From: Bacteroidales bacterium
Lineage (GTDB): Bacteria > Bacteroidota > Bacteroidia > Bacteroidales > UBA10428
Assembly (NCBI GenBank): GCA_016934395.1
Contig: JAFGSZ010000102.1
Location: 1-64,000 of the forward strand
Length of the DNA: 64,000 bases
Reading direction: 5' to 3'
Below, in pieces: positions 4,412 through 63,137 of the stretch; within the stretch, counting starts at the first letter, position 1, and each line of letters begins with the position of its first letter. The position numbers and the translations under genes were made by a program. Under the pieces are notes generated by a model. It was not told the DNA's origin, made no database searches, and saw only the letters and a list, made by a program, of their open reading frames with translations.

Positions 4412-5467
4412 TTATTCCAGATTAAACAGATTGCCTACCCGGGGTACAATAACTTTTGAATTTATTTTTTTTTCAGAAAAAATCCGGTTGGCCCAGATTT
4501 CCAGTTCCTCGTCTGTAAAAATTCTTTCACCATAATACTTCCGGTCTTCCAAACCACTATAGTGAATAAGATGCACATGCGGAATTGCTACCCGATTAAT
4601 AAAATCTACAATACTTAATGGCCAATCACTATTTTTAAAATCTGAGATAAATTCATCAAAATAGGAATGGAGATCGTTGTCGTATTTTCGAACCATATGC
4701 GGAGCCAGCAAATGTGAAATACGGGCCTTGGTTTTCCAGTCCGTTAGTCTTTCACTCACTTTTTGCGTATTCGGGTCGATATCTGAAAAACTACCGTGAT
4801 TACTTCCCGGATAAGGGAACCGGTTGTTACAATCGATATAAATTGCCTGCGCAGAAGCTAAAGTTTTAAAGTCTTTCTTTCGCAACAACGGGCACAACAT
4901 ATCGCCTGTAAACACTAAGCTTGAAGCTTTATCGGGTGATTTGGTAATTTCAAAAAACAGCATGGAAGCGCCAAAGCCGTTTTCACCATGAAAAACCGGA
5001 AACGGAGTAACTTTTACCCCGTCTGCCTCAGAGATTTGGGTAGTAACTCCTGCCTTTAATTCCTTAAATTCAAGTATTCCCTTTAAATGAGGATAAGATT
5101 GGATAATAAAATCCCGGCAGGGGCTTGTTGCATATACCGGATATAGCTTTTTATTGTTTAAATGGTAATAACTCTGGACAATCCAGTCAATTCCTAAAGT
5201 ATGGTCCATATGCGGATGCGTAATCACCAAGGCTTCCGGAATACGATTGGTGTTTTTAATAAGGTAGGGCACCGTATGATGCCCGGCATCAATCACAATT
5301 TCCCAGTCTGTATTTTCTAACCCGGGTTGTCCGTTTGAACGATAAAGAGAATAGGAGGCATTGGCAAGATCGTCTGAAGATTTTTTATAAAAGGGATGAT
5401 CGCTGCCGAGAAATACCGGCCAGGCATTACCTCTGCCATTAACCCGGACATAAATATTTTTTTCCAT
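4412..5467 (-). CDS. Metallo-beta-lactamase fold hydrolase
   Basis: 351 residues, cytoplasmic (no signal peptide). The metal-binding motif THPHMDH is at residues 83-89, with a further His at about 160 (FPVFHGENGF) and Asp at about 189 (VFTGDM), giving a complete two-metal site of the MBL fold. The N-terminal part resembles the PqqB/RNase Z-like branch of the superfamily, with D60-A-G-H in the first strand. The substrate cannot be told; hydrolysis of a phosphodiester or a thioester are possibilities. The start lies five bases after the stop of the S46 peptidase, so the two are very probably co-transcribed. Confidence 0.75.
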   Translation of the reverse strand: MEKNIYVRVNGRGNAWPVFLGSDHPFYKKSSDDLANASYSLYRSNGQPGLENTDWEIVIDAGHHTVPYLIKNTNRIPEALVITHPHMDHTLGIDWIVQSYYHLNNKKLYPVYATSPCRDFIIQSYPHLKGILEFKELKAGVTTQISEADGVKVTPFPVFHGENGFGASMLFFEITKSPDKASSLVFTGDMLCPLLRKKDFKTLASAQAIYIDCNNRFPYPGSNHGSFSDIDPNTQKVSERLTDWKTKARISHLLAPHMVRKYDNDLHSYFDEFISDFKNSDWPLSIVDFINRVAIPHVHLIHYSGLEDRKYYGERIFTDEELEIWANRIFSEKKINSKVIVPRVGNLFNLE

Positions 5468-5472
5468 ACAAA

Positions 5473-7650
5473 TTATTCTAAAATTTCCATCTCCTCAATC
5501 AGGTGCGATGCTCCTGCAAATTTATCGATGATAAATAAAACATACCGTATATCAACTGTAATATTTCTGCATATTTCAGGATTATAAAAAATATCACTTA
5601 ATGTCCCTTCCCAGTTCCGGTCAAAATTAACCCCGATAAGTTGTCCCTGAGCATTTAATACCGGACTTCCTGAATTTCCTCCGGATGTATGATTAGATGC
5701 AGTAAAACAAACCGGCATCGTACCATGATCACCATATCTGCCGAAATTCTTATTCCGGTACAGATTTATCAATTTTGGGGGTACACAAAAGTAATAATCG
5801 CTGGTATCGTTTTTATCCATGAGGCCCTCTAACGTGGTATAATATATATAATCCACGGCATCTTTTGGATGATAGCCTTCAACTTTACCATAGGTTAAAC
5901 GCATAGTCCGGTTTGCATCGGGGTAACGTACTTTTTCCTGGTCCATCTCCCGTAAAGCCTGAATGTATATTCCATATAAATTATGTAATCGTTCCTCCAT
6001 AAGGATATAATAAGGCTCAATGGTGGATTGAAACTGATCGGTAAAAGCATTATATAACAAAATTGCCGGATCCTTGTGTAAGATTTTTTGCTGCCGGCGA
6101 GTATTTTTACTGAAGAATTTTGTTATTCCGGCAGAATCTGCAAACCAGGTATGGTTAAACACGTATTGGGCAAATGCCTGATAATCGCCCGTAAATTTCA
6201 AGCGCATTTTTTCCAGTTCCTTTGGAAAAAACTGTGGATCCACACGTTGATAATAGGCTTCCATCAATGCTGCGAAAACCTCTTTATCAATATCTTTTGA
6301 GTAATTTTTCAAATTACTGTATGCAGATTTCTGCAAAGAATATAACAGGTCTCCGGGTATTGTATCGGCAGAATCAGAAATATACTGGTTTAAAACAGCA
6401 ACCCTTCCGGCAAATTTAATAATTTCGATTCCCATAATTGCTTCCTGATAAAAATCGTAAGCAATATAATAGGGCTTTAAGTCATTATAGTATTGTTTAA
6501 ATTTTTCAAGCAAACTTCCATATTTTTTTTTGTTTTCTGCATTGCTGTTTACCCAGCTGGTGAATTTTTCTTCCTGTGATTTTTTTAAATCCACTGCTTT
6601 TGATTTTTGCAGACCAGTAATCATACCCTGCCATTTTTTCCAGGCATTGCTAATTCGCGATTGTTTGGCAGCATATTGCAATCTCACCAGTTTATTCTGG
6701 TCCATCATACGATTAATAACCTGTAAACGTTTATCGCGAAGCGTTACCCGGTTTGGAAGACTGATATCCGAAATATATTCTATGGCGAAAGAGGTGAGAT
6801 ATTCACTGGTACGTGCCGGGTATCCCAAAACTACCGTTAAATCTCCTTCCTCAACACCATTCAGTGATATAGGAAAATATTTTTGTGGTTTGTAAGGAAC
6901 ATTCATTTTTGAGTATGCCGCAGGCCTATTTTTTGCATCAGCATAAATTCTGAAAATTGAAAAATCACCTGTATGCCTTGGCCACATCCAGTTATCCGTA
7001 TCGCCCCCAAAACTTCCAATGGATTCGGGAGGTGTTCCTACCAAACGGATATCCCTGAATTCTTCGTATATAAACAGGTAATATTCATTTCCATAATAAA
7101 AAGATTCTACTCTGGCTATATATTGAGTACCTGCCGATGCTTCATTTTCAATTTCAGCAACCTTTTCAATAGTCTTTAGCCGCCTTAAATCAAAATCACG
7201 AATATCTTTCACCGACTCACGGATTTGTTCCGTAACATCCTCAACGCTTATCAGAAATTTTACTGTGAGCCCCGGATTCCAAAGCTCTTTATCCCTGCTT
7301 TCTGCCCAAAATCCTTTTTCGAGGTAATTATTTCCGAGCGTTGAATGTGCCTGAATATTACTCCGACCGCAATGAAAATTAGTAAGCAACAGACCTTCTG
7401 AAGACACTACACCCGCAGTACATCCGCTGCCAAAAAGAACCACTGCATTTGCCAGACAGGCCCTATTGATACTATATATGTCTTCAGCTTCTAATGCAAA
7501 CCCATGTTGCTGCAGATCTTCCATAACGTAATGTTCCAGTAAAAAAGGCAGCCACATACCTTCCTCACCCTGCGAAAAAGTAAGATTAAAAAACAATAAC
7601 ATTAAAAATAATCCTGTTGTCCGGGTGATTTTTTTGATATTTACAACCAT
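5473..7650 (-). CDS. S46 family dipeptidyl peptidase, predicted DPP11-type (Asp/Glu-specific)
   Basis: 725 residues with a signal peptide (about 1-26, ending FNLTFSQG), the family length. S46 enzymes are periplasmic serine peptidases that release dipeptides from N-termini, feeding amino-acid fermenting Bacteroidota. The catalytic triad can be placed: H93 (TNFHCGRSN), D229 (RHTGDFS) and S660 (GGNSGSPV). Eighteen residues after the serine stands Arg678 (VNFDRNWEG), the position known to be Arg in acidic-specific DPP11 and Gly in DPP7, so specificity for Asp/Glu at P1 is inferred. It sits in the kdsC-ubiA-maf operon, 17 bases after maf. Confidence 0.92.
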   Translation of the reverse strand: MVVNIKKITRTTGLFLMLLFFNLTFSQGEEGMWLPFLLEHYVMEDLQQHGFALEAEDIYSINRACLANAVVLFGSGCTAGVVSSEGLLLTNFHCGRSNIQAHSTLGNNYLEKGFWAESRDKELWNPGLTVKFLISVEDVTEQIRESVKDIRDFDLRRLKTIEKVAEIENEASAGTQYIARVESFYYGNEYYLFIYEEFRDIRLVGTPPESIGSFGGDTDNWMWPRHTGDFSIFRIYADAKNRPAAYSKMNVPYKPQKYFPISLNGVEEGDLTVVLGYPARTSEYLTSFAIEYISDISLPNRVTLRDKRLQVINRMMDQNKLVRLQYAAKQSRISNAWKKWQGMITGLQKSKAVDLKKSQEEKFTSWVNSNAENKKKYGSLLEKFKQYYNDLKPYYIAYDFYQEAIMGIEIIKFAGRVAVLNQYISDSADTIPGDLLYSLQKSAYSNLKNYSKDIDKEVFAALMEAYYQRVDPQFFPKELEKMRLKFTGDYQAFAQYVFNHTWFADSAGITKFFSKNTRRQQKILHKDPAILLYNAFTDQFQSTIEPYYILMEERLHNLYGIYIQALREMDQEKVRYPDANRTMRLTYGKVEGYHPKDAVDYIYYTTLEGLMDKNDTSDYYFCVPPKLINLYRNKNFGRYGDHGTMPVCFTASNHTSGGNSGSPVLNAQGQLIGVNFDRNWEGTLSDIFYNPEICRNITVDIRYVLFIIDKFAGASHLIEEMEILE

Positions 7651-7667
7651 GCTTATCCTAAATTTTT

Positions 7668-8255
7668 TTATACAAATTTTTCAAGTTCAGTATATAATTT
7701 TTGCACCGGAAGACCCATTACATTAAAATATGAACCCTCAATTTTTTCAACTCCCGCGTATCCTATCCATTCCTGAATACCATAAGCCCCGGCTTTATCC
7801 AGGGGCTTAAACTTATTTACATAAAAGCTAATTTCATCCTCTTTAAGTTCACGAAAGTATACATTGGTTTTACTGCAAAAAACGCTTTCATAATCGAGGC
7901 TTTTAAGGCAAACTCCGGTAAGTACCTCATGTTTTTTGCCTGATAATTTTTTTAATAATTGTACGGCCTCCAGCTGATCCTTTGGCTTTCCGATAACTTC
8001 ATTATCAAGCCAGACAATGGTATCTGCTGCAATCAGTATTGTTTTCTCTTCAATGTAATTTGCATAAATTTTCGCCTTTTCTTTGGCAAGGTAAACCGGA
8101 ATCTCATCATAGTATAAATTTGCCGGATATATTTCATCCTGTTCATTCAAAGTTATTACTTCAAAATCAAGACCCAGTTCTTTTAATAAAAAATGTCGCC
8201 GGGGCGACTTTGAAGCAAGGATTAATCTGTAGTTTTGTAACTGGTTTATTAACAT
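7668..8255 (-). CDS. maf: Maf-like nucleoside triphosphate pyrophosphatase
   Basis: 195 residues, the normal Maf length. The family hydrolyses non-canonical or modified nucleotides (dTTP, UTP, modified bases) to monophosphates and was first linked to septum formation. The N-terminal LILASKSPRRHFLLKELG is the signature, with the AADTIVWLDNEVIGKPKD loop carrying the catalytic Asp and the substrate Lys. It belongs to a tightly packed minus-strand operon: five bases after the UbiA-like gene and 17 before the S46 peptidase. Which subfamily (YhdE or YceF) it belongs to cannot be fixed by eye. Confidence 0.92.
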   Translation of the reverse strand: MLINQLQNYRLILASKSPRRHFLLKELGLDFEVITLNEQDEIYPANLYYDEIPVYLAKEKAKIYANYIEEKTILIAADTIVWLDNEVIGKPKDQLEAVQLLKKLSGKKHEVLTGVCLKSLDYESVFCSKTNVYFRELKEDEISFYVNKFKPLDKAGAYGIQEWIGYAGVEKIEGSYFNVMGLPVQKLYTELEKFV

Positions 8256-8260
8256 AAATT

Positions 8261-9232
8261 CTAAAACTTAAAATGTATGATATAGCATGATATCGGGGCA
8301 TATAATATTCCGGTAAGCATGGTAATTTTTATCCATGTGCTTGCTCTATGGTAACTGCTTTTATCATTGGCCCTGAGAATATTGAGTATGGTAAAAATTA
8401 TAGGCACGGCAATGGCTGTAAGAAAATATAGAAATGTAAGCCAGTCGTTAAGGTAAAAAACAAACAAAAATAAAAGTGCAAGCAACATTATACTTTCAAG
8501 ACCCACAATAATTCCTCTTGTTGTATTAACACCAATAACCAAAGGAAGGGTTTCACGGCCAAAAGATTTGTCACCCTCATAATCTTCGATATCTTTTACT
8601 ATTTCACGCGAAAGATTGGTTAAAAAGGCAAATGCAGAAAAATTAAATATCCATGCCGTAAGGTAATTAAAATTTGCCCCCATAAGTTTTAATATACTTC
8701 CATACGCTTTGTTCAATAGCGGGTATTCAAAGAGTAACACCATAAGAGGCACCAGGGCCGTAAGCACAGCCACAACAAGGTTCCCAATAAAAACCTGTCG
8801 TTTATATGTAGTGGAATAAAACCAAAGAATGCCCACAATCAATACAAATATAATCCCCAGAAATACCATACCAATACGATATGAAATATAAAAACCCAAT
8901 ATTACAGCAACCGTATTCAGTATTAAATGAATCATAATAGCTGATCGCCTCCTGATAATACGCCCTAATATCACAGATTGAGGATGATTTATGAGATCCG
9001 TTTTCCTGTCGAAATAATCGTTAATTACATATCCTGCTGCTGCGATAAGTACCGTAGAAATGGTTAACAGCAAAAAATAGAATGAGCTGAACTGCAATTC
9101 AAAACCATTAATCTGAAGCATGGGTCGGATTATGGCATACCTCATTAAATAAAGGGTTATAACAATAATTATTAAATTAGGATATCTGACTAATTTAAAG
9201 AATGCCGCTATATGTTTTGCCCTGACTACCAT
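8261..9232 (-). CDS. UbiA-family prenyltransferase, geranylgeranylglycerol-phosphate geranylgeranyltransferase-like
   Basis: 323 residues with about eight or nine membrane helices. Two Asp-rich motifs of the UbiA family bind the Mg-prenyl diphosphate: NDYFDRKTDLINHP (about 71-84) and KDIEDYEGDKSFGRETLP (about 214-231). Placement between kdsC and maf in Bacteroidota is typical of the subgroup annotated as digeranylgeranylglyceryl phosphate synthase-like, which in archaea makes ether lipids. The acceptor in this organism is not proven; menaquinone or haem O prenylation are less likely from the context. The start overlaps the kdsC stop by seven bases, indicating translational coupling. Confidence 0.82.
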   Translation of the reverse strand: MVVRAKHIAAFFKLVRYPNLIIIVITLYLMRYAIIRPMLQINGFELQFSSFYFLLLTISTVLIAAAGYVINDYFDRKTDLINHPQSVILGRIIRRRSAIMIHLILNTVAVILGFYISYRIGMVFLGIIFVLIVGILWFYSTTYKRQVFIGNLVVAVLTALVPLMVLLFEYPLLNKAYGSILKLMGANFNYLTAWIFNFSAFAFLTNLSREIVKDIEDYEGDKSFGRETLPLVIGVNTTRGIIVGLESIMLLALLFLFVFYLNDWLTFLYFLTAIAVPIIFTILNILRANDKSSYHRASTWIKITMLTGILYAPISCYIIHFKF

Positions 9233-54467: not shown

Positions 54468-56030
54468 ATGAAGTTTCACTTGCTCCGTAACTGCTTAATT
54501 ATCTTCTCCATTATTACTTTGTATATTAAACCTTTACGCGCTCAGGAATTTAAGATTGCCCAAAGCGATTTTAATTATAATTATAGCAATACTTCAATTC
54601 ATAAAATTATAGGTGATGAACCCGGGGCTTTTTATGTGATAAAATTTTATTCTAACAATTACTATATAGAAAAATTAGATAGCAACCTGAATCTTGTGCA
54701 TGAAGAATTTATAAGTCAGAATGAAGGATTAAAAAGTTTTAGTTTTGAAGCGGCAGTTCTTTTCCACAATGAACTTTATGTGTTTTCATCCCGGCAAAAA
54801 TTGCAGGAAACCATTTTATATTACCAGATATTGGATAAGGAATCTCTTATACCATCCACTGAGCGGATAGAAATTACCACTGTTAAGCATATAAAGGGAA
54901 ACTGGCCTGAATTCCATTTTACCCTGTCGAGGGAAAAAACAAAATTATTACTCAATTACAGGATCAAGGTTTCCTTATCAAAAGTTCAGTTTAATGAATT
55001 TTATGTATTCGATAAAGATCTTGAAGTAGTCTGGAAAAAACAAGACTCGTTTGATTATAAAGGTATCGGTCCAAGGGATAATTATTATGTGGTTGATGAA
55101 ATTGGAAATGTAAGTATTTTAAGCCTTTTAAAAAGGGAATCAATCTTTGATGTATTTCGCGAAATTAAAAATGTATATCTCATACATCGGTATACACATA
55201 ACGGGGAAACCTTTTTGGAATATCCCATTACATTTCCCGATCGGTATATCAGAGACCTGAAGGTAATTGCAGATGCAGATGGCGGATTAATCTGTGCCGG
55301 ACTGTATTCCGAAATATTACGTTCGGGCATTAAAGGCAGTTTTTTCTTTAAAATACATCCCCATGACGGCAGGATATACGATAACTATTCTTACGAATTC
55401 GAGCCACAATTTCTCGAACAACTCATAAAAGCAGGTGAGCCCACTATGTCTGACAATGAATTAATGAGCTACGTGTTAACCGATATGGTACTTAGAAAAA
55501 ACGGCCACGTAGTTCTTATTGCCGAACAGTTCTTTAATCAAAGTTACAACACGTACAATAATTTAATTGTTATCGATTATGATAATTCCGGTACAGTTTA
55601 TTGGAACAAGGTAATTCAGAAACGTCAGAATTTCGATACCCGGGCAATTGATACAAATAAACTGCTGCCAGAACAATATCGTGAATATCTGCAGGAGACA
55701 GGCCATATCGACTACACGTACGAAAATTACTGCTCGTATGCCTTAATGGCTGCCCCGGATCAAAATTACATCATGATATTCTATAACGATAATATTAAAA
55801 ATCTTTCACAAAATGAAAAGACCCTTAATTTTAATCATCCGAAAAGATCATATATATGTGCACTCACTATTGATGAATATGGCAATATTTCCAAACAATC
55901 GCTTTTACCATGGAAAAAAAAGGCCATGTACCCGACTCCTGTCCGATATTATGATACACTGAAAAATACAATTATTATTCCCGCTTTTAGAGGAAGAAAA
56001 TACAATTATTATAAAATTTCCGTTAATTAA
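54468..56030 (+). CDS. Secreted hypothetical protein, probable beta-propeller
   Basis: 520 residues with a signal peptide (about 1-25, ending KPLRAQ). The mature sequence is rich in repeated beta-strand blades of the kind x-x-x-I-Y-D-x-D-x-N/G-x-x-x-x-W (for example FYVFDKDLEVVWKKQDSF, IVIDYDNSGTVYWNK, ALTIDEYGNISKQ), suggesting a beta-propeller. No sorting domain or lipobox was found. I do not recognise a named family. It stands alone with a clear promoter. Confidence 0.65.
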   Translation: MKFHLLRNCLIIFSIITLYIKPLRAQEFKIAQSDFNYNYSNTSIHKIIGDEPGAFYVIKFYSNNYYIEKLDSNLNLVHEEFISQNEGLKSFSFEAAVLFHNELYVFSSRQKLQETILYYQILDKESLIPSTERIEITTVKHIKGNWPEFHFTLSREKTKLLLNYRIKVSLSKVQFNEFYVFDKDLEVVWKKQDSFDYKGIGPRDNYYVVDEIGNVSILSLLKRESIFDVFREIKNVYLIHRYTHNGETFLEYPITFPDRYIRDLKVIADADGGLICAGLYSEILRSGIKGSFFFKIHPHDGRIYDNYSYEFEPQFLEQLIKAGEPTMSDNELMSYVLTDMVLRKNGHVVLIAEQFFNQSYNTYNNLIVIDYDNSGTVYWNKVIQKRQNFDTRAIDTNKLLPEQYREYLQETGHIDYTYENYCSYALMAAPDQNYIMIFYNDNIKNLSQNEKTLNFNHPKRSYICALTIDEYGNISKQSLLPWKKKAMYPTPVRYYDTLKNTIIIPAFRGRKYNYYKISVN

Positions 56031-56072
56031 AAAATCAAAAGAATTTAACCTTTGGTTTGTGAAATCTTATGT

Positions 56073-56534
56073 ATGAAAAAAGATATTATTTTACATTTTA
56101 ACATCAGGGTTTATGGAATTTTAATAAACGATAATAATGAAGTACTCCTGTCAGATGAATTTCAGTTAAATCAACGGATGACCAAATTCCCCGGCGGGGG
56201 CCTGAAATTTGGCGAAGGGCCTGCAGATTGTATCAAACGTGAAGCTATAGAAGAGTTTGGACAGGAAATTATAATTATTGATCATTTTTATACTACTGAA
56301 TTTTTTCAAAAAGCGCTTTTTTATCCCGATCACCAGTTAATAAGCATATATTATCGTATAAAACTGGCAGGACCTCAGAAATTTGTAGTAGCAACCAAAC
56401 CCTTTGATTTTAAAAAAAATAGTAACGGCATCCAGTCATTCAGATGGGAAAAAATTATAACACTAAATCCCGATGATTTCACATTTCCGATAGATAAGCA
56501 TGTATGCCAACTCTTAAAAGAAAAATTTTCTTAG
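56073..56534 (+). CDS. Nudix hydrolase
   Basis: 153 residues from ATG at 56073 (MKKDII...); an upstream TTG at 56052 is less likely. The Nudix box is perfect: G-x5-E-x7-R-E-A-I-E-E-F-G (GGLKFGEGPADCIKREAIEE). Substrate is a nucleoside diphosphate linked to another group. It starts the plus-strand group leading into the heptose operon, 48 bases ahead of the fusion gene, so a sugar-nucleotide substrate is possible. Confidence 0.9.
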   Translation: MKKDIILHFNIRVYGILINDNNEVLLSDEFQLNQRMTKFPGGGLKFGEGPADCIKREAIEEFGQEIIIIDHFYTTEFFQKALFYPDHQLISIYYRIKLAGPQKFVVATKPFDFKKNSNGIQSFRWEKIITLNPDDFTFPIDKHVCQLLKEKFS

Positions 56535-56582
56535 TCGTTATTATTGCTTTTCTTTGTAACAAATATTTTATGCCCAAATTTG

Positions 56583-58466
56583 ATGAAAGCAGTGATTTTA
56601 GCCGGAGGTAAAGGTACCCGGCTTGCAGAATATACCCGTGAAATTCCAAAACCCATGCTCAAAGTAGGCCCGTGGCCTATACTTGAACACCAGGTACGCT
56701 TATTAAAACAATATAATATTACAGATATAATAATTCTTGTTAACTACCTGAAGGAATCCATTATCGACCATTTTGGAAAGGGCGAAAAGCTGGGCGTGAA
56801 AATTTCATATTTCGAAGAGCCCTCTCCTCTTGGAACTGTGGGCGGAATTAAAGAAATTGAAAATATTCTTACCGAAGATTTTATTGTTGTGTATGGTGAT
56901 GTGATGGTTAATATGGACCTGAACAGGCTGATAACTTTTCATAAAGAAAAAAAAAGCCAGTGCACACTGGTACTGCATCCTAATGATCATCCTTTAGACA
57001 GTGACCTGGTAAATATTGATACTTCAGGTAGAATAACGGCTTTTTATCCAAAACCCCACGATCCTGGCGAATATTTTAAAAACCTTGTAAATGCAGGCCT
57101 GTATATTTTTAGTCCGCTTATCCTTTCTTTTATTAAAAAAGGAATAAAAGCTGATTTCGGAAGAGATATATTTCCCGATATTTTTTCACAGCTAAGAATG
57201 TATGGATACAATACTTCCGAATATCTGAAAGATATGGGTACACCTGACCGCTGGGATGAAGTCAGTAACGATTTTACTTCCGGAAAAACAGGGCGAAAAA
57301 GTTTTGGCAACAATCAAAAAGCCATATTTCTTGATCGCGACGGGGTATTAAATATTGAACAGAGTTTTATTCACAAACCCGAAGATCTTAAACTTTATGA
57401 TTTTACAGCAAGGTCAGTGAAAAAAATTAATGCTTCGGATTTCCTGTCCATCGTTATTACCAACCAATCCGTAATTGCCCGTAACCTTTGTACTATCGAA
57501 GAACTGGAAACCATTCATAATAAACTGGAAACCGAACTTGGTCAATCCAGGGCAAAACTCGATGCCATATATTATTGTCCACACCATCCTGACAGCGGTT
57601 TCCCGGAAGAAAATCCGGAATTTAAAACAGACTGCGAATGCCGGAAACCCAAACCCGGATTGTTTCTCAAAGCTGCCGGTGATTACAATATAGATTTATC
57701 ACAATCTTTCATGATTGGCGATTCGGAGCGCGATATCCTTGCCGGGAAAAATGCCGGTTGTACAACTATTGGTGTAATGTCTGGCTACGGAATAAAAAAA
57801 ACCAGTATCCTCCCGGATTATTTTTTTAAAAATCTTGAAGAAGCGGTAGATTTTATTATCGACGAACCTTACGCCAATGAATTTAAATTTATTTTTAATA
57901 AATTTTCACGATCCGGGAAAAAACCCTTTGTTATTGCGCTGGCCGGAAATGCAAAAGCAGGAAAAAGTAACTTTGCCCGATGGATGCAAAAACAATTTAG
58001 CCGCTCTGGTTACAACAGCCTGATTATGGAACTCGACCACTGGATTGTTCCCGAAGAAACCCGAAAAGAATCCGGTAATGTTTATGACCGGTTCCAGGTA
58101 AATCTACTGGAAGAAGATATTAAAAACTTTTTTAAAGGAAAAGGTATTCATCGTGCAGGATATGCGCATCATCCGGAACGCGAATCCAACATGGTGAATT
58201 ACCAGTTGGGGAAACAGGATGTTATTATTTTTGAAGGAATTGTGGCCTTGAGCATTCATTCGATTAAAAATAATGCGGACATGAAGATATTTTTAGAACC
58301 GGGTGAAAAAGTGCGGAAACAAAGATTTGTGGACTATTATTTATGGCGTGAAAAAGAATTGCCTGATATTGAACGGCTTTTTGAAAAAAGGAAAGCAGAT
58401 GAATATCAATTAATAGAAAAAGAAAGTAAATTAGCTGATTTTATAATCAATGTGAATTCATTATGA
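56583..58466 (+). CDS. Three-domain fusion: sugar-1-P nucleotidyltransferase - GmhB-like phosphatase - P-loop kinase
   Basis: 627 residues from ATG at 56583 (MKAVILAGGKGTRL; an upstream TTG at 56544 would add 13 residues). Domain 1 (about 1-235) is a GT-A nucleotidyltransferase with GGKGTRLAEYTREIPKPML, as in HddC-type heptose-1-P guanylyltransferases. Domain 2 (about 245-430) is a HAD phosphatase with FLDRDGVLN, the Zn site CPHHP...CECRKP and GDSERDILAG, as in GmhB. Domain 3 (about 445-627) has a P-loop GNAKAGKS (near 453) and ELDHWIVP, like uridine kinase/phosphoribulokinase. The pair of first domains fits the GDP-heptose pathway; the role of the third is unknown. Stop overlaps the next start by four bases. 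Confidence 0.88.
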   Translation: MKAVILAGGKGTRLAEYTREIPKPMLKVGPWPILEHQVRLLKQYNITDIIILVNYLKESIIDHFGKGEKLGVKISYFEEPSPLGTVGGIKEIENILTEDFIVVYGDVMVNMDLNRLITFHKEKKSQCTLVLHPNDHPLDSDLVNIDTSGRITAFYPKPHDPGEYFKNLVNAGLYIFSPLILSFIKKGIKADFGRDIFPDIFSQLRMYGYNTSEYLKDMGTPDRWDEVSNDFTSGKTGRKSFGNNQKAIFLDRDGVLNIEQSFIHKPEDLKLYDFTARSVKKINASDFLSIVITNQSVIARNLCTIEELETIHNKLETELGQSRAKLDAIYYCPHHPDSGFPEENPEFKTDCECRKPKPGLFLKAAGDYNIDLSQSFMIGDSERDILAGKNAGCTTIGVMSGYGIKKTSILPDYFFKNLEEAVDFIIDEPYANEFKFIFNKFSRSGKKPFVIALAGNAKAGKSNFARWMQKQFSRSGYNSLIMELDHWIVPEETRKESGNVYDRFQVNLLEEDIKNFFKGKGIHRAGYAHHPERESNMVNYQLGKQDVIIFEGIVALSIHSIKNNADMKIFLEPGEKVRKQRFVDYYLWREKELPDIERLFEKRKADEYQLIEKESKLADFIINVNSL

Positions 58467-59452
58467 TCATTTCCCGTACGCCATTCCGGATTAGTTTTGT
58501 GGGTGGAGGTTCAGATATGGAAACCTTCTATTCAAAACATCAGGGAGCGGTACTCAGCACTTCTGTGAACAAATACATGTACATTTCGTCGCACCGATAT
58601 TTTTACCCGGACCAGATCCAGGTAAAATATTCGCGCACAGAAACCGTAAATAATCTCGATAACCTTAAGCATCCCCTGCTGCGGGAGGCATTGCGGAAAG
58701 CAGGTATTACAGGGGGAATTGAAATCAGTTCAATTGCCGATATACCTGCCGGAACTGGAATGGGATCCTCCTCTTCTTTTACCGTAGGCCTTTTGCATAA
58801 TCTTTATGCCATAAAAAGAAAATATGTTTCGCACGATGTTCTCGCAAAAGAAGCAAGCGAAATCGAAATCGATATTCTTGGAGAACCTATTGGTAAACAA
58901 GACCAGTATGCTGCAGCATTTGGCGGTTTAAATATCATTTGGTTTAATACCGATGGCAGTGTAAAAGTTGAACCTCTATACATTAAAAGTAATGTTTACC
59001 AGAAGCTCGAAAAAAACCTCATCATGTTTTATATCGGCAACCAGCGTAAAGCTTCAGATATCCTTACCGAACAAAAAAAGAATGCTTCAACCGAAGATAA
59101 ATTTAATATTCTGAAACAGATGGTGGCTCTGGTTCCTGATCTTCGTACCTCGCTGTACAATGAGAATTTAAGCGACTTTGGTAAAATTCTGCACGAAAAC
59201 TGGATACTAAAACAAAAACTGGCTTCAAAAATATCCAATCCGGAAATTGATGAGATCTATGCTTCCGGATTAAAAAACGGGGCATTGGGCGGAAAACTCC
59301 TTGGTGCCGGCGGGGGTGGTTTTATGCTTTTTTATTGCGAAGAAAACAAGCAGGAAAAATTAATTCATGCCCTTAAAACATATGATACTTTTGATTTTAA
59401 ATTCGAACGCGACGGTTCGAAAATAATATACTTTGCTGATGAATATATCTAA
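58463..59452 (+). CDS. hddA: GHMP kinase, HddA-like heptose 7-phosphate kinase
   Basis: 329 residues. GHMP fold: N-terminal IISRTPFRISFVGGGSDMET, the ATP loop PAGTGMGSSSSFTVGLL and C-terminal LLGAGGGGFMLFY. Similar enzymes phosphorylate D-glycero-D-manno-heptose 7-phosphate at C1 (alpha), making the 1,7-bisphosphate that GmhB then cleaves at C7. Start ATG overlaps the fusion stop by four bases (ATGA), evidence of coupling. Fucokinase-type activity is the main alternative, but the neighbours favour heptose. Confidence 0.82.
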   Translation: MIISRTPFRISFVGGGSDMETFYSKHQGAVLSTSVNKYMYISSHRYFYPDQIQVKYSRTETVNNLDNLKHPLLREALRKAGITGGIEISSIADIPAGTGMGSSSSFTVGLLHNLYAIKRKYVSHDVLAKEASEIEIDILGEPIGKQDQYAAAFGGLNIIWFNTDGSVKVEPLYIKSNVYQKLEKNLIMFYIGNQRKASDILTEQKKNASTEDKFNILKQMVALVPDLRTSLYNENLSDFGKILHENWILKQKLASKISNPEIDEIYASGLKNGALGGKLLGAGGGGFMLFYCEENKQEKLIHALKTYDTFDFKFERDGSKIIYFADEYI

Positions 59453-60053
59453 TCATTTTGAAAACTACTTTAAGGGTGTATCCGAAACCCTTCAAAAACT
59501 CGATATACAGTCCATTGAATCCGTAGTAGACGATCTTCTATCTTGCCGGGAAAAAGGAGCATTTATTTATATTTTCGGAAATGGCGGAAGCGCTGCCAAT
59601 GCTTCTCATATTGCCGGGGATTTTTTAAAAGGTATATCCTACGGACTGGAAAAGCGATTTAAAATAATTTGTCTGAATGATAATATTGCCGGGACCACAG
59701 CCATCACAAACGACCTTTCTTATGATGAGGTGTTTGTGGAACAACTTAAAACCTTCCTTTCGCCAAACGATCTTGTTATCGGTATTTCAGGAAGCGGCAA
59801 TTCGGAAAATGTGGTAAGAGCCCTGGAGTATGCAAAAAGCCGGCATGCGAAAACTATTGCTATGTGCGGTTTTAAAGGGGGAAGAGCAAAAGAGATTGCT
59901 GATTCTGCCCTCTTGGTCCCGGTTAACGATATGGAAATAACGGAAGATATACACATAATAATATTTCATGCTATTAAGCAGAAAATCATCCGGAAGCTCA
60001 AAGGGGAAAATTATTCTATGGGCTCTAATTACGATAACCGGGTTAAAGATTAA
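59439..60053 (+). CDS. gmhA: SIS-domain phosphoheptose isomerase (GmhA-like)
   Basis: 204 residues from ATG at 59439; a TTG two codons upstream is possible. The SIS fold shows FGNGGSAANASHIAGDFLKG and IGISGSGNSENVVRALEYAK, the GmhA signature, and a C-terminal EDIHIIIFHAIKQKI segment with the His of the family. It isomerises sedoheptulose 7-phosphate to heptose 7-phosphate, the first step of nucleotide-heptose synthesis. Its start overlaps hddA by 14 bases. DiaA-like proteins are the alternative but do not fit the neighbours. Confidence 0.85.
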   Translation: MNISNHFENYFKGVSETLQKLDIQSIESVVDDLLSCREKGAFIYIFGNGGSAANASHIAGDFLKGISYGLEKRFKIICLNDNIAGTTAITNDLSYDEVFVEQLKTFLSPNDLVIGISGSGNSENVVRALEYAKSRHAKTIAMCGFKGGRAKEIADSALLVPVNDMEITEDIHIIIFHAIKQKIIRKLKGENYSMGSNYDNRVKD

Positions 60054-60056
60054 TTT

Positions 60057-61010
60057 ATGAAAGCATTTATAACCGGTGGTGCAGGTTTTATTGGCAGTAA
60101 TCTGGCCGACCGACTTCTTGAAACCGGAACTGAAGTTACCGTGTATGACAATTTTAGTACCGGACAGGATAAATTTATCCGCCATAACATCAATAACCCG
60201 AAATACACTTTAATCAGTGCCGATGTGCTTGATAAAAACACGCTGATATCCGCCATGTCTGGTAATGATGTGGTATTTCATTTTCAGGCCAATGCCGATG
60301 TAAGAGGCGGTATACATAACACCCGGATAGATGTGGAGCAGAATATTACCGGAACGCACAATGTACTTGAAGCCATGCGGGTAAACAATATTAAAAAAAT
60401 TGCATTTGCCAGCTCAGCAGTTGTATATGGAGAACCTGAAATTATTCCCACTCCTGAAAATATTCCCCTGATTCAAACATCACTGTACGGAGCATCAAAG
60501 ATTTCAGCCGAAAGTCTAATCCAGGCCTATTGCGAATATTTTGATATGAAAAGTTATATTTTCCGCTTTGTATCTTTTATGGGCCCACGATATACACATG
60601 GGGTTATATTCGATTTTATGAAAAAGCTGAAAGAAGATCCCACAAAACTTCACATTCTGGGCGACGGAAAACAACGAAAATCATACCTGCATGTATCTGA
60701 CGGGATTTCCGCTATTTTACTAGCCATGAAAAAATCAGATAAAAAAACAAATATCTTAAACCTGGGCAACAGCGAATGGATAAACGTTACCGATCTGGCA
60801 TATATCGTTTGTGAAAACCTGGGATTAAAAAAAGTTAAATTTTCTTTTGCTGGCGGAATCCGTGGCTGGAAAGGCGATACTCCCTTTGTTCATCTCGACA
60901 TCAGTAAGATTTCGGCATTGGGTTGGAAACCAGATTATTCAGTAAAAGATACTATTATTGATACGGTGAAGTACCTTTCTGAGAATGACGATTTGTTAGG
61001 TGCACGGTAA
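60057..61010 (+). CDS. NAD-dependent sugar epimerase/dehydratase (extended SDR)
   Basis: 317 residues. Extended SDR: cofactor motif ITGGAGFIGSNLADRLL, YDNFSTGQDK, ASSAVVYGEPE and the catalytic Y-x-x-x-K (SLYGASKISAES), with a C-terminal substrate-binding region containing GDGKQRKSYLHVSDG. GalE-like UDP- or GDP-sugar epimerases have this pattern. It begins three bases after the gmhA stop, so it belongs to the heptose operon and probably modifies the resulting nucleotide-heptose or a related sugar. Product unknown. Confidence 0.85.
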   Translation: MKAFITGGAGFIGSNLADRLLETGTEVTVYDNFSTGQDKFIRHNINNPKYTLISADVLDKNTLISAMSGNDVVFHFQANADVRGGIHNTRIDVEQNITGTHNVLEAMRVNNIKKIAFASSAVVYGEPEIIPTPENIPLIQTSLYGASKISAESLIQAYCEYFDMKSYIFRFVSFMGPRYTHGVIFDFMKKLKEDPTKLHILGDGKQRKSYLHVSDGISAILLAMKKSDKKTNILNLGNSEWINVTDLAYIVCENLGLKKVKFSFAGGIRGWKGDTPFVHLDISKISALGWKPDYSVKDTIIDTVKYLSENDDLLGAR

Positions 61011-61069: not shown

Positions 61070-62074
61070 TTATTTCTTTAGCTCCGTTGCTTTTTTGCTT
61101 TCTCCACCCCTCTTAAATACCATTCTGTAAATTATATTTCTCAATACTCCCAGACCATAAGCAATAAGCAATTCAAGAGAAGTAACAACACTTAGTAAAC
61201 CTACCCAGATACTTTTATTCTGAATGGAACTGTCAGCAAAAACAGCCAAAGTATAAACTGCAACTCCGGATAACACAAGGTAAAACCACCATGGAACAAA
61301 CCATATAGCAACTATTGCAGACAGAATAGAGATCATAAACATACTGGGAAGCAAATGCAAAGCTTTTAATGCATTGCCATGTTTCAGATGAAGGTCGATA
61401 CGGCCTTTACCATGAAAATACAACTGGTGCCAGAATATTCTAAAATTGGCTTTCCGGCGGTGATATACAAAAGCATCTGGAATAAGTGATGTTTTATAAC
61501 CTGCTTTTTGCAGGCGCATGCTTAAATCCAGATCTTCAGCTACCTGCATACCACTAAAACCTCCAACATTAAAAAAAACCTCACGGCGCATACCCATATT
61601 AAACCCGCGCATATGGAATTTACCCAGATGGAATTTTTTGCCGCGGATACCACCAGTGGTCAGCATAGATGTCATGGCATAATTCACTGCTTTCTGAAAG
61701 GGTGAAAAATTATCGTCAGCTGCATCTGGGCCGCCGTATCCAACAATTTCGGTATGAGAAACTAAAAATGAGTCCACCACATCCATGTAATGCGGAGGCA
61801 GAATACAATCCGAATCTATAAAAACCAGCCATTCACCCTTGGCATGTTCGCAACCCAGGTTTCTGGATTCACTGGCTCCCAGGCTTTTTTTATAGAAATA
61901 ACTTAATGTTAATTTATCTTTATAGCCATTCACTAATTCCTGTAAGCTGGTATCAGGACTGCCATCCACAACAATTACCTCGAAGTTTTTAAAAAGCTGT
62001 TTTGTCAAACTACCCAGAAAAGCTGTTACTTCTTCCGGACGCCCGAATGTGGGAAGTATAATAGAATAATACAC
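61070..62074 (-). CDS. GT2 family glycosyltransferase with C-terminal membrane segments
   Basis: 334 residues, starting at GTG (62074). GT-A domain: SIILPTFGRPEEVTAFLGSL, IVVDGSPDTSLQEL, the DxD motif FIDSDCILP (residues 87-89) and EDLDLSMRLQKAGY. Two to three C-terminal membrane helices (about 244-305) anchor it in the inner membrane. It transfers a sugar in polysaccharide or O-antigen synthesis; specificity unknown. It converges on the epimerase gene across the palindrome. Confidence 0.88.
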   Translation of the reverse strand: MYYSIILPTFGRPEEVTAFLGSLTKQLFKNFEVIVVDGSPDTSLQELVNGYKDKLTLSYFYKKSLGASESRNLGCEHAKGEWLVFIDSDCILPPHYMDVVDSFLVSHTEIVGYGGPDAADDNFSPFQKAVNYAMTSMLTTGGIRGKKFHLGKFHMRGFNMGMRREVFFNVGGFSGMQVAEDLDLSMRLQKAGYKTSLIPDAFVYHRRKANFRIFWHQLYFHGKGRIDLHLKHGNALKALHLLPSMFMISILSAIVAIWFVPWWFYLVLSGVAVYTLAVFADSSIQNKSIWVGLLSVVTSLELLIAYGLGVLRNIIYRMVFKRGGESKKATELKK

Positions 62075-62103
62075 TATATCGTTTTAATTTGAAATTAATC
62101 CTG

Positions 62104-62111
62104 CAAAAGTA
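62104..62111 (-). promoter_or_regulatory. Candidate -7 element for the GT2 gene at 62074
   Basis: Minus strand TACTTTTG matches TAnnTTTG, 29 bases before the GTG start. A -33 element was not found. The gene follows the terminator of the upstream gene, so a promoter in this gap is needed. Confidence 0.4.
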
Positions 62112-62142
62112 ATATAATTCATTTAACCGCAGGATAAGAAAT

Positions 62143-62166
62143 AAAAAAACCGGGAATCCCCGGTTT
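62143..62166 (-). terminator. Rho-independent terminator after the GT2 gene at 62187
   Basis: Stem AAACCGGG/CCCGGTTT (62147-62166) with a four-base loop, followed on the minus strand by TTTTTTTAT. It lies 20 bases after the stop of the preceding GT2 gene. Confidence 0.88.
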
Positions 62167-62186
62167 CTAAATTTTAAAAATTATGA

Positions 62187-63137
62187 TCAAATCTCCTTTT
62201 CTATCAGGTATGAATTCCGGTTTGAACCGCTCCGTGAAATCAACTCTCCTAAAAATCCGGATAAAAAAAGCAGCGTACCCAGAACCATACAGGTAAGGCC
62301 GATATAAAAATACGGACTATTTGTAACCAGCGGGGCCGTTACATTATGCCTAATTGCCAGCAGCTTATTGATGCCTAAAATTGCTGCCATTACAAATCCA
62401 AGAATAAAGGTGAGTGTACCTAACGTACCGAACAGGTGTAACGGACGCTTTCCATATTTTGATATGAAAATAACAGAAAGCAAATCCAGGGGACCGCGGA
62501 TAAATCGTTCAAAGCCATATTTGGTTTTTCCAAACTTACGCTCCTGGTGTTGTACAACTTTTTCACCAATTTTGTTAAAGCCCGACCATTTGGCAAGTAC
62601 CGGGATATACCGGTGCATTTCGCCATATACTTCGATACTTTTAATAACACGATTTTTATATGCCTTAAGGCCACAGTTAAAATCGTGCAATTTTATTTTA
62701 CTTATTCTTCTTGCTGTCCAGTTAAAAAATTTACTGGGGATATTTTTCGAAAATAACGGGTCGTAACGCTTCTTCTTCCAGCCGGAAACAAGATCATAAT
62801 TCTCCTCTGTAATCATTCTGTACAGCTCGGGTATTTCCTCGGGATTATCTTGCAGATCAGCATCCATGGTAATTACCACATCACCTTTCGCAACATCAAA
62901 TCCGCAAAATAAAGCAGCCGATTTTCCGTAATTACGCCTGAATTTTATTCCTTTTACAGATGCATTTTTTTGTGTACATTCTTCAATAACCTGCCAGGTA
63001 GTATCTGTGCTTCCGTCATCAATAAAAATAACTTCATAGCTGAACTTATTTTTATCCATTACCGCCTCTATCCAATTCACTAATTCCCGTAACGATTCTT
63101 CTTCGTTATAAGAAGGTATTACCACCGAAATATCCAT
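62187..63137 (-). CDS. GT2 family glycosyltransferase, undecaprenyl-/dolichol-phosphate sugar type
   Basis: 316 residues. GT-A domain with ISVVIPSYNEEESLRELVNW, FIDDGSTDTTW, DxD MDADLQDNPEEIP and KIKLHDFNCGLKAYK, then two C-terminal membrane helices (about 235-258 and 275-300). This is the GtrB/ArnC/DPM pattern: it loads a sugar onto a polyprenyl phosphate for use on the outer face of the membrane. It follows the DUF4199 gene by 26 bases. Confidence 0.9.
   Translation of the reverse strand: MDISVVIPSYNEEESLRELVNWIEAVMDKNKFSYEVIFIDDGSTDTTWQVIEECTQKNASVKGIKFRRNYGKSAALFCGFDVAKGDVVITMDADLQDNPEEIPELYRMITEENYDLVSGWKKKRYDPLFSKNIPSKFFNWTARRISKIKLHDFNCGLKAYKNRVIKSIEVYGEMHRYIPVLAKWSGFNKIGEKVVQHQERKFGKTKYGFERFIRGPLDLLSVIFISKYGKRPLHLFGTLGTLTFILGFVMAAILGINKLLAIRHNVTAPLVTNSPYFYIGLTCMVLGTLLFLSGFLGELISRSGSNRNSYLIEKEI

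Follow-up and report, generated by a model that had tools for sequence, protein, structure and literature searches.

A nucleotidyltransferase, a GmhB-type phosphatase and a candidate P-loop kinase fused in one protein linked to GDP-heptose synthesis

This report concerns a gene located within a stretch of 64,000 nucleotides from a Bacteroidales bacterium (contig JAFGSZ010000102.1, hereafter the window), which encodes a protein of 627 amino acids (P0001; 56583..58466, forward strand, stop codon included) joining an HddC-like sugar-1-phosphate nucleotidyltransferase, a GmhB-type HAD phosphatase and a P-loop kinase domain of the phosphoribulokinase (PRK)/uridine-kinase fold. Judged from sequence, the protein is on balance probably a trifunctional enzyme, whose C-terminal domain would be a P-loop kinase competent for catalysis, would constitute a subfamily of its own within this fold with a substrate site unlike that of uridine kinase, and would not replace HddA. 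As far as sequences carry it, this reading is drawn from the architecture of the protein, its operon, three conserved catalytic sites, purifying selection acting on the kinase and the co-occurrence with HddA and GmhA. The kinase is likely active with a substrate of its own, as its catalytic residues are invariant, its median dN/dS (ratio of nonsynonymous to synonymous substitution rates) amounts to 0.16 in Rhizobium and residues typical of uridine kinases are missing, and its constant company likely ties it to heptose metabolism. The fusion itself is real, more widespread than first seen and hence not a curiosity of one genome.

Architecture of the fused protein

The reading frame starts with an ATG at 56583 (an in-frame TTG at 56544 could serve as an alternative start) and translates without internal stop into 627 residues; on the opposite strand, the corresponding register is interrupted by stop codons throughout. 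Three Pfam domains exceed their cut-offs, namely PF00483 (nucleotidyl transferase; 132.2 bits as compared to 21.2, best stretch residues 2-231), PF13242 (HAD; 54.7 bits as compared to 22, best stretch residues 353-421) and PF00485 (phosphoribulokinase/uridine kinase; 46.1 bits as compared to a gathering cut-off of 22, best stretch residues 450-624), whereby HAD hydrolase families are matched between residues 250 and 421. Together with the stop-free frame, these matches bear out the coordinates and the three-domain order put forward in the initial annotation. All domains being encoded on the forward strand, domain 1 comprises residues 1-235 (56583..57287) with E79 of the ExxPLGT motif, domain 2 residues 244-427 (57312..57863) with the DxD and TNQ motifs, a CxH...CxC zinc loop, K355 and D380/D384, and domain 3 residues 446-627 (57918..58463), in which the P-loop GNAKAGKS occupies residues 455-462. 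A structure model of the whole chain reached a pLDDT of 84.5 and a pTM of 0.84 (8 sequences), with P-loop residues 457-460 falling below 50; a Foldseek search with this model returned relatives of the nucleotidyltransferase and HAD domains only, among the 50 matches listed.

The search for homologues with the same domain order, which had been proposed as a check, was successful: the order is common to four named metagenome-assembled genomes (best segment 52-59% identity; in one of these, L009, the protein ends at residue 572 due to the contig end) and recurs in many further genomes and in plasmid records. As a consequence, the fusion is explained neither by chance nor by misassembly.

The C-terminal kinase domain

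Conservation of the kinase was counted over 32 fused proteins and over 33 after adding the protein of G768, a genome from another class of the phylum. The 32 rows leave out L009 (contig end), L075 of genome G413 (degenerate nucleotidyltransferase, trimmed to 37 amino acids), the two-domain proteins L012-L014 as well as G409 and G410. Residues G455, G460, K461, D485, W487, Y527, G552, W588, R603 and E607 are identical in 32/32 fused kinases, and K461, D485, Y527, W487, W588, R603 and E607 are so in 33/33, whereby position 551 is always acidic (Glu in 27 and Asp in five of the 32 rows, Glu in 28 and Asp in five of the 33). The claim of an added kinase with an intact P-loop was supported, and the third domain, whose lack of conservation in homologues would have spoken against it, turned out to be conserved with invariant catalytic residues and under purifying selection. 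Within the 32 rows the kinase domain has a mean pairwise identity of 37% (minimum 19%), whereas the two remaining domains average 53% and 60%. Across 13 Rhizobium genes the median dN/dS was 0.096 for the nucleotidyltransferase, 0.099 for the HAD and 0.164 for the kinase domain (kinase maximum 0.314), and the kinase motifs SGKST, LDRW, WKG and R-x-Q-[DE]-E are retained in all 13.

A comparison set of 17 uridine kinases from the same class, all of them stand-alone proteins, shares K461, the catalytic Asp and the Y527 column with the fused kinases. The column two residues after the catalytic Asp holds Trp (W487) in 33/33 fused kinases but Tyr in 17/17 uridine kinases, and W588, R603 and E607 each occur in 0/17 of the latter. 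Conversely, the NxDxP loop of the uridine kinases (Asn in 16/17, Asp and Pro in 17/17) falls into a gap in 33/33 fused kinases, the tyrosine pair of DxYY after strand 2, a mark of uridine kinases, is found in 0/33, and the lid residues R580, R584 and D585 (17/17 each in uridine kinases) are kept in three, two and one of the 33 fused kinases, respectively. The lid of uridine kinases is nevertheless not wholly lost, with R581 being retained as Arg in 29/33. Human UCK2 and bacterial uridine kinase hence have the P-loop, the catalytic Asp and the Tyr527 and Glu551 columns in common with the fused kinase, but differ from it at the acceptor-site loop, Trp487, Trp588, Arg603 and Glu607. In UCK2, Asp84 and Arg166 bind the ribose and His117/Tyr112 serve the base (PMC9163393).

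The uridine kinase equivalogs NF004018 (55.4 bits as compared to 180) and TIGR00235 (43.3 as compared to 220.3) were missed, and the phosphoribulokinase model NF005655 likewise stayed below its cut-off (45.2 as compared to 236). Even PF00485 is matched at lower scores by the Rhizobium (35.3 bits), Methylovirgula (24.8 bits) and G768 (27.2 bits) proteins, and some members of family f36 score lower than the cut-off of 22. A model of the kinase domain on its own was weak (pLDDT 69.4, pTM 0.57); with it, Foldseek gave weak matches, the best ones to UCK2 (3.9e-4) and PRK (6.8e-4), and the best Z of VIA-align was 6.0, to unrelated folds.

The nucleotidyltransferase and phosphatase domains

The initial annotation had proposed that two consecutive late steps of GDP-heptose synthesis are fused; a fusion of the last two steps is supported by the operon with HddA and GmhA, the GmhB catalytic and zinc residues listed below in 32/32 rows and the nucleotidyltransferase glutamate in 35/35. 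This glutamate, E79, is the counterpart of the ExxPLGT residue through which Yersinia HddC contacts guanine, and MurU also has Glu at this position (PMC6981941). The motif is therefore not decisive for HddC and by itself leaves room for other nucleotides or for mannose. The HddC equivalog NF049965 remained below its cut-off (99 bits as compared to 300), and the best NCBIfam nucleotidyltransferase match among those listed was the exception model NF052502, mannose-1-phosphate guanylyltransferase (170 bits where 440 are needed). The fold resembles that of Yersinia pseudotuberculosis HddC (5xhw, 6jq8; TM-score by target length 0.83), which is a stand-alone enzyme whereas the domain is fused here, and MurU folds match about equally (0.82-0.87). 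It is the operon which suggests heptose rather than mannose as the probable substrate of domain 1.

In domain 2 the catalytic and zinc residues D251, D253, T293, N294, C332, H334, C351, C353, K355, D380 and D384 are present in 32/32 rows. The GmhB models NF006506 (157.2 as compared to 178 bits), NF050049 (114.9 as compared to 250) and TIGR00213 (137.3 as compared to 149.6) were missed, and the broader HAD models TIGR01656 (125.7 as compared to 84.15) and TIGR01662 (103.3 as compared to 44.6) were exceeded. Escherichia coli GmhB (2gmw, 3l8e) is alike in fold (TM-score by target length 0.85-0.91) and in catalytic and zinc residues, but is a stand-alone enzyme, whereas the GmhB of the window forms the middle part of a fused chain. 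In the synthesis of ADP-heptose, the E. coli enzyme takes the beta anomer as its substrate; a literature search on the anomer preference of GmhB in Bacteroides turned up nothing useful.

Distribution of the fusion

A search at E <= 1e-60 was carried out in 60 relatives, 23 genomes belonging to the family of the window and 37 to other families of the order, and found the fusion in 17/23 and 0/37, respectively. Within the 17, the matches of G409 and G410 cover part of the protein, and that of G413 is interrupted by stops and degenerate in its first domain. Of the six family members lacking a match, two are G414, whose sequence is cut by the contig end inside HddA, and G395, in which a kinase fragment precedes HddA beside a run of N. 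In the latter (L147, ~5414-8935) N runs join unrelated proteins in frame, including a C-terminal piece of the fused kinase, which is an assembly gap and not a new architecture. The G413 gene (L075, 3118-4983) has a nucleotidyltransferase without GGxGxR and ExxPLGT, with GmhB and most kinase motifs remaining, and the genome also has a separate HddC-like, GmhB-like and HddA-like set (L149); the two remaining activities, kinase and phosphatase, may be of use even if the first domain is lost, or else the gene may be decaying.

In a class sample of 395 genomes, kinase matches within frames of 624-684 amino acids were obtained in 16 genomes, i.e., the genome of the window and 15 of family f36, next to three long frames (566, 693 and 702 amino acids) with weak kinase matches. 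A search with the GmhB domain identified the same 16 genomes and, among the matches listed, none in a frame of 400-600 amino acids. A phylum sample of 395 genomes (E <= 1e-20) gave two fusions, in the genome of the window and in G768, besides one uridine-kinase-like frame of 235 amino acids. The gene order in G768 is SDR, glycosyltransferase, fusion, HddA, GmhA.

Among 72,556 plasmids searched at the protein level, 72 records matched, 52 of which cover at least 80% of the query (51 from Rhizobium, one from Methylovirgula). The plasmid carriers include the cultured root-nodule species Rhizobium leguminosarum, R. etli and R. phaseoli, and the product, if annotated at all, is named 'HAD-IIIA family hydrolase'; one Rhizobium protein and the Methylovirgula protein were scanned with Pfam, and each showed all three domains. 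The Rhizobium cluster has the order SIS protein, glycosyltransferase, membrane proteins, SDR, fusion, GHMP kinase. When the same plasmid set was queried with the kinase of Rhizobium (E <= 1e-5), it gave 55 Rhizobium records; the window kinase (E <= 1e-3) again gave 55 from Rhizobium, together with one uridine kinase from E. coli and one phosphoribulokinase from Hirschia. The whole fusion, with its three domains in one place, is present in 51/55 Rhizobium kinase records; no stand-alone copy of the kinase was seen in the plasmids, a check outside which four of the 55 records fall. Records named 'Bacteriophage sp.' from human faeces (MT835828.1, MT839678.1, MT836753.1, MT840050.1) match the nucleotidyltransferase and GmhB parts up to residue 401 with 43-46% identity and are possibly bacterial DNA in phage records.

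Two-domain relatives and age of the fusion

Proteins that begin with a nucleotidyltransferase followed by GmhB, sharing 31-58% identity with the window protein but stopping after GmhB (about 408-443 amino acids) and hence lacking the kinase, occur on Lawsonia plasmids, in Desulfobacterales (L012), Sumerlaeota (L013/L014), Azospirillum and Niveispirillum. In Jannaschia, nucleotidyltransferase and GmhB are separate genes beside a GHMP kinase and an SDR gene, and no P-loop sugar kinase is annotated there. Stages of the fusion thus become visible, i.e., separate genes (Jannaschia), two-domain (Lawsonia, Desulfobacterales) and three-domain proteins. Judged by its distribution, the three-domain fusion is old. 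A stand-alone kinase beside the two-domain protein, which would have hinted at the partner, was not found in the genomes of L012, L013 and L014 (E <= 0.001): the L012 genome gave just a weak match within a P-loop ATPase-like frame of 266 amino acids, and the Sumerlaeota matches belong to a different, nucleoside-kinase-like protein of 610-643 amino acids with no nucleotidyltransferase or GmhB parts recognisable by eye.

The heptose operon and its neighbourhood

In the window the fusion is followed on the forward strand by a gene for an HddA-like GHMP kinase (58463..59452), overlapping the stop of the three-domain gene by ATGA (58463-58466) and retaining both GHMP kinase domains (Pfam), by a gene for a GmhA-like sedoheptulose-7-phosphate isomerase (59439..60053, TTG start at 59433 also possible), which overlaps HddA, and, three bases on, by an SDR gene (NAD-dependent epimerase/dehydratase by homology; 60057..61010) of the same operon. 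In Rhizobium and Methylovirgula, too, an SDR gene adjoins the fusion, and in G768 a single gene separates the two. As described for C. jejuni (PMC10680097), the known GDP-heptose pathway has four activities in four separate proteins; by homology the window operon holds all four, but with GmhB and the nucleotidyltransferase in one chain and the P-loop kinase added as a fifth domain, which renders the latter a surplus activity.

Among 14 loci of the window's family, HddA adjoins the fusion in 12 and GmhA lies next to HddA in 11; L062 ends inside HddA, L064 ends at a contig edge before HddA and L075 has neither. In family f36, where the fusion gene has mostly moved, it adjoins HddA in 2/15 loci only; HddA is nevertheless present in 13/15 of these genomes, the same 13 having a close GmhA (>200 bits), and the exceptions, G225 and G338, lack both. 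Four members of the window's family without the fusion, G402, G404, G407 and G411, also lack HddA (G407 and G411 being 69% and 66% complete).

The upstream neighbour of the f36 fusion is a methyltransferase in 11 of the 13 loci scanned (all 15 except L078 and L090), including both loci with HddA downstream; it is of class I type (L076, L077, L080-L088), the other neighbours being a dehydrogenase E1 component (L089) and an oppositely oriented DNA-alkylation protein (L079). Methyltransferases also lie nearby in the Lawsonia cluster (L167) and in Methylovirgula (L166), so that the heptose may be methylated. Upstream of the window fusion, a protein of 520 amino acids without Pfam match (54468-56030) lies between MiaA and a Nudix gene and is retained in some family members (L062-L065, L009). 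The Nudix hydrolase (56052-56534) is conserved close to the fusion at many loci from the window's family and might hydrolyse GDP-sugars. On the downstream side, GT2 glycosyltransferases (61070-63137) adjoin the heptose genes. In Rhizobium (L165, 2828-7010) a GT2 enzyme is accompanied by a large membrane protein and by a flippase-like protein (PF03706), which suggests a polyprenyl-phosphate-linked sugar.

Discussion

P-loop kinases of the PRK/uridine-kinase superfamily usually phosphorylate an alcohol other than the anomeric hydroxyl, a preference which favours the 7-hydroxyl of a C7 sugar or a hydroxyl of the finished sugar over the HddA step. The fused kinase would phosphorylate a small molecule of the heptose pathway, and the version preferred here, though with low confidence, is that its acceptor may be a free C7 sugar, either sedoheptulose or D-glycero-D-manno-heptose, phosphorylated at its primary hydroxyl. 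The free sugar would thereby be converted into its 7-phosphate, which GmhA/HddA and the nucleotidyltransferase and GmhB domains would turn into GDP-heptose, so that a salvage entry would be joined to the de novo route, similar to fucokinase and pyrophosphorylase in FKP. FKP contains a GHMP-type kinase, works on a different sugar and has no phosphatase domain. The likeness lies in a single chain that combines a sugar kinase with a nucleotide-sugar pyrophosphorylase, as in FKP of Bacteroides fragilis, an L-fucokinase/GDP-fucose pyrophosphorylase (PMC6468028).

The suggestion of the initial annotation that the kinase makes or recycles a nucleotide in the manner of a uridine kinase was not supported. 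Named families nearest by sequence are indeed uridine kinase models, the lid residue R581 is mostly kept, and a PF00485 search of 33 genomes found a separate strong match just in G396 and G399 (with fusion) and G404 (without fusion), although with limited sensitivity, as it missed the fused domain itself in six genomes carrying the fusion. However, the scores lie far below the 180 and 220.3 bits that the uridine kinase models require, the NxDxP loop, the Tyr after the catalytic Asp and the R580/R584/D585 lid are largely or wholly missing from the 33 fused kinases, ribose binding by human UCK2 uses Asp84 and Arg166 (PMC9163393), and G396 and G399 keep a separate uridine-kinase-family gene in addition to the fusion. 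With cut-offs missed and marker residues absent, it is very improbable that the C-terminal domain serves the cell as its uridine/cytidine kinase and simply happens to be attached to a sugar enzyme, and this identity was rejected. A second heptose-7-phosphate 1-kinase would yield one three-step enzyme, since the HddA step comes directly before the two fused steps, and G225 and G338 carry the fusion without HddA; the presence of HddA in 13/15 f36 genomes, its position adjoining the fusion in 12/14 family loci and the two retained GHMP kinase domains of the window HddA speak against it, and in G225 and G338 a close GmhA is missing as well, so that the pathway there seems incomplete and not rescued. 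As HddA nearly always co-occurs with the fusion, its replacement was likewise rejected as quite improbable.

Phosphorylation of GDP-heptose or heptose 1-phosphate, yielding a phosphorylated heptose for a surface glycan, would suit a kinase fused to the last two enzymes. The kinase-free two-domain relatives may then make the plain sugar, and the methyltransferases beside the f36 fusion point to further modification of the heptose; but no partner enzyme specific for phospho-heptose was found, and such a late step is regarded as unlikely. A regulatory or structural relic without catalysis is hardly credible: its faster evolution as compared to the other domains and its absence from some relatives would fit, but catalytic residues invariant in 33/33 and the median dN/dS of 0.16 in Rhizobium led to rejection of a pseudo-kinase.

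Several observations weigh against the preferred reading, i.e., an active kinase with its own substrate within a trifunctional enzyme. NCBIfam equivalogs above cut-off for the three-domain protein were absent among the matches listed (25 of 62), where broader HAD models are the only ones above cut-off. The kinase evolves faster than the other two domains, and by eye two kinases outside the 33 deviate, that of Methylovirgula having Arg in place of W588 and that of G413 keeping the P-loop, LDNW and EWQG with no clear match in the R603 column. The kinase can also be absent, as a kinase-free protein adjoins HddA (L012) or a GHMP kinase (Lawsonia). A phylogeny built from the nucleotidyltransferase and GmhB domains, with the two-domain proteins of Sumerlaeota as root and several deeper and backbone nodes being weak, places L012 within the three-domain set, together with the family of the window (support 0.985), hence the kinase was lost in the L012 line or left behind on transfer. 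Finally, G225 and G338 possess the fusion without HddA and without a close GmhA, which a salvage function leaves unexplained and which counts against any simple version.

Pathway and folds are known. What appears to be new, as far as sequence allows this to be said, is a fusion for which no description was found and a kinase subfamily of its own in culturable bacteria; neither the three-domain protein nor its kinase was found described in the literature, judged by titles and abstract openings. As the gene resides on plasmids of cultured Rhizobium, the question of its function is directly testable by knockout and in vitro assay. A kinase with an invariant active site, carried on the same two heptose enzymes in Bacteroidota and Rhizobium, suggests an undescribed phosphoryl-transfer step tied to heptose metabolism. 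Tentatively, the fused domain may found a new specificity within the PRK/uridine-kinase superfamily, either a heptose/heptulose kinase or a GDP-heptose kinase, in several Bacteroidota lineages and many Rhizobium strains. If true, one chain would join two routes or would extend the known sugar nucleotides by a phosphorylated heptose.
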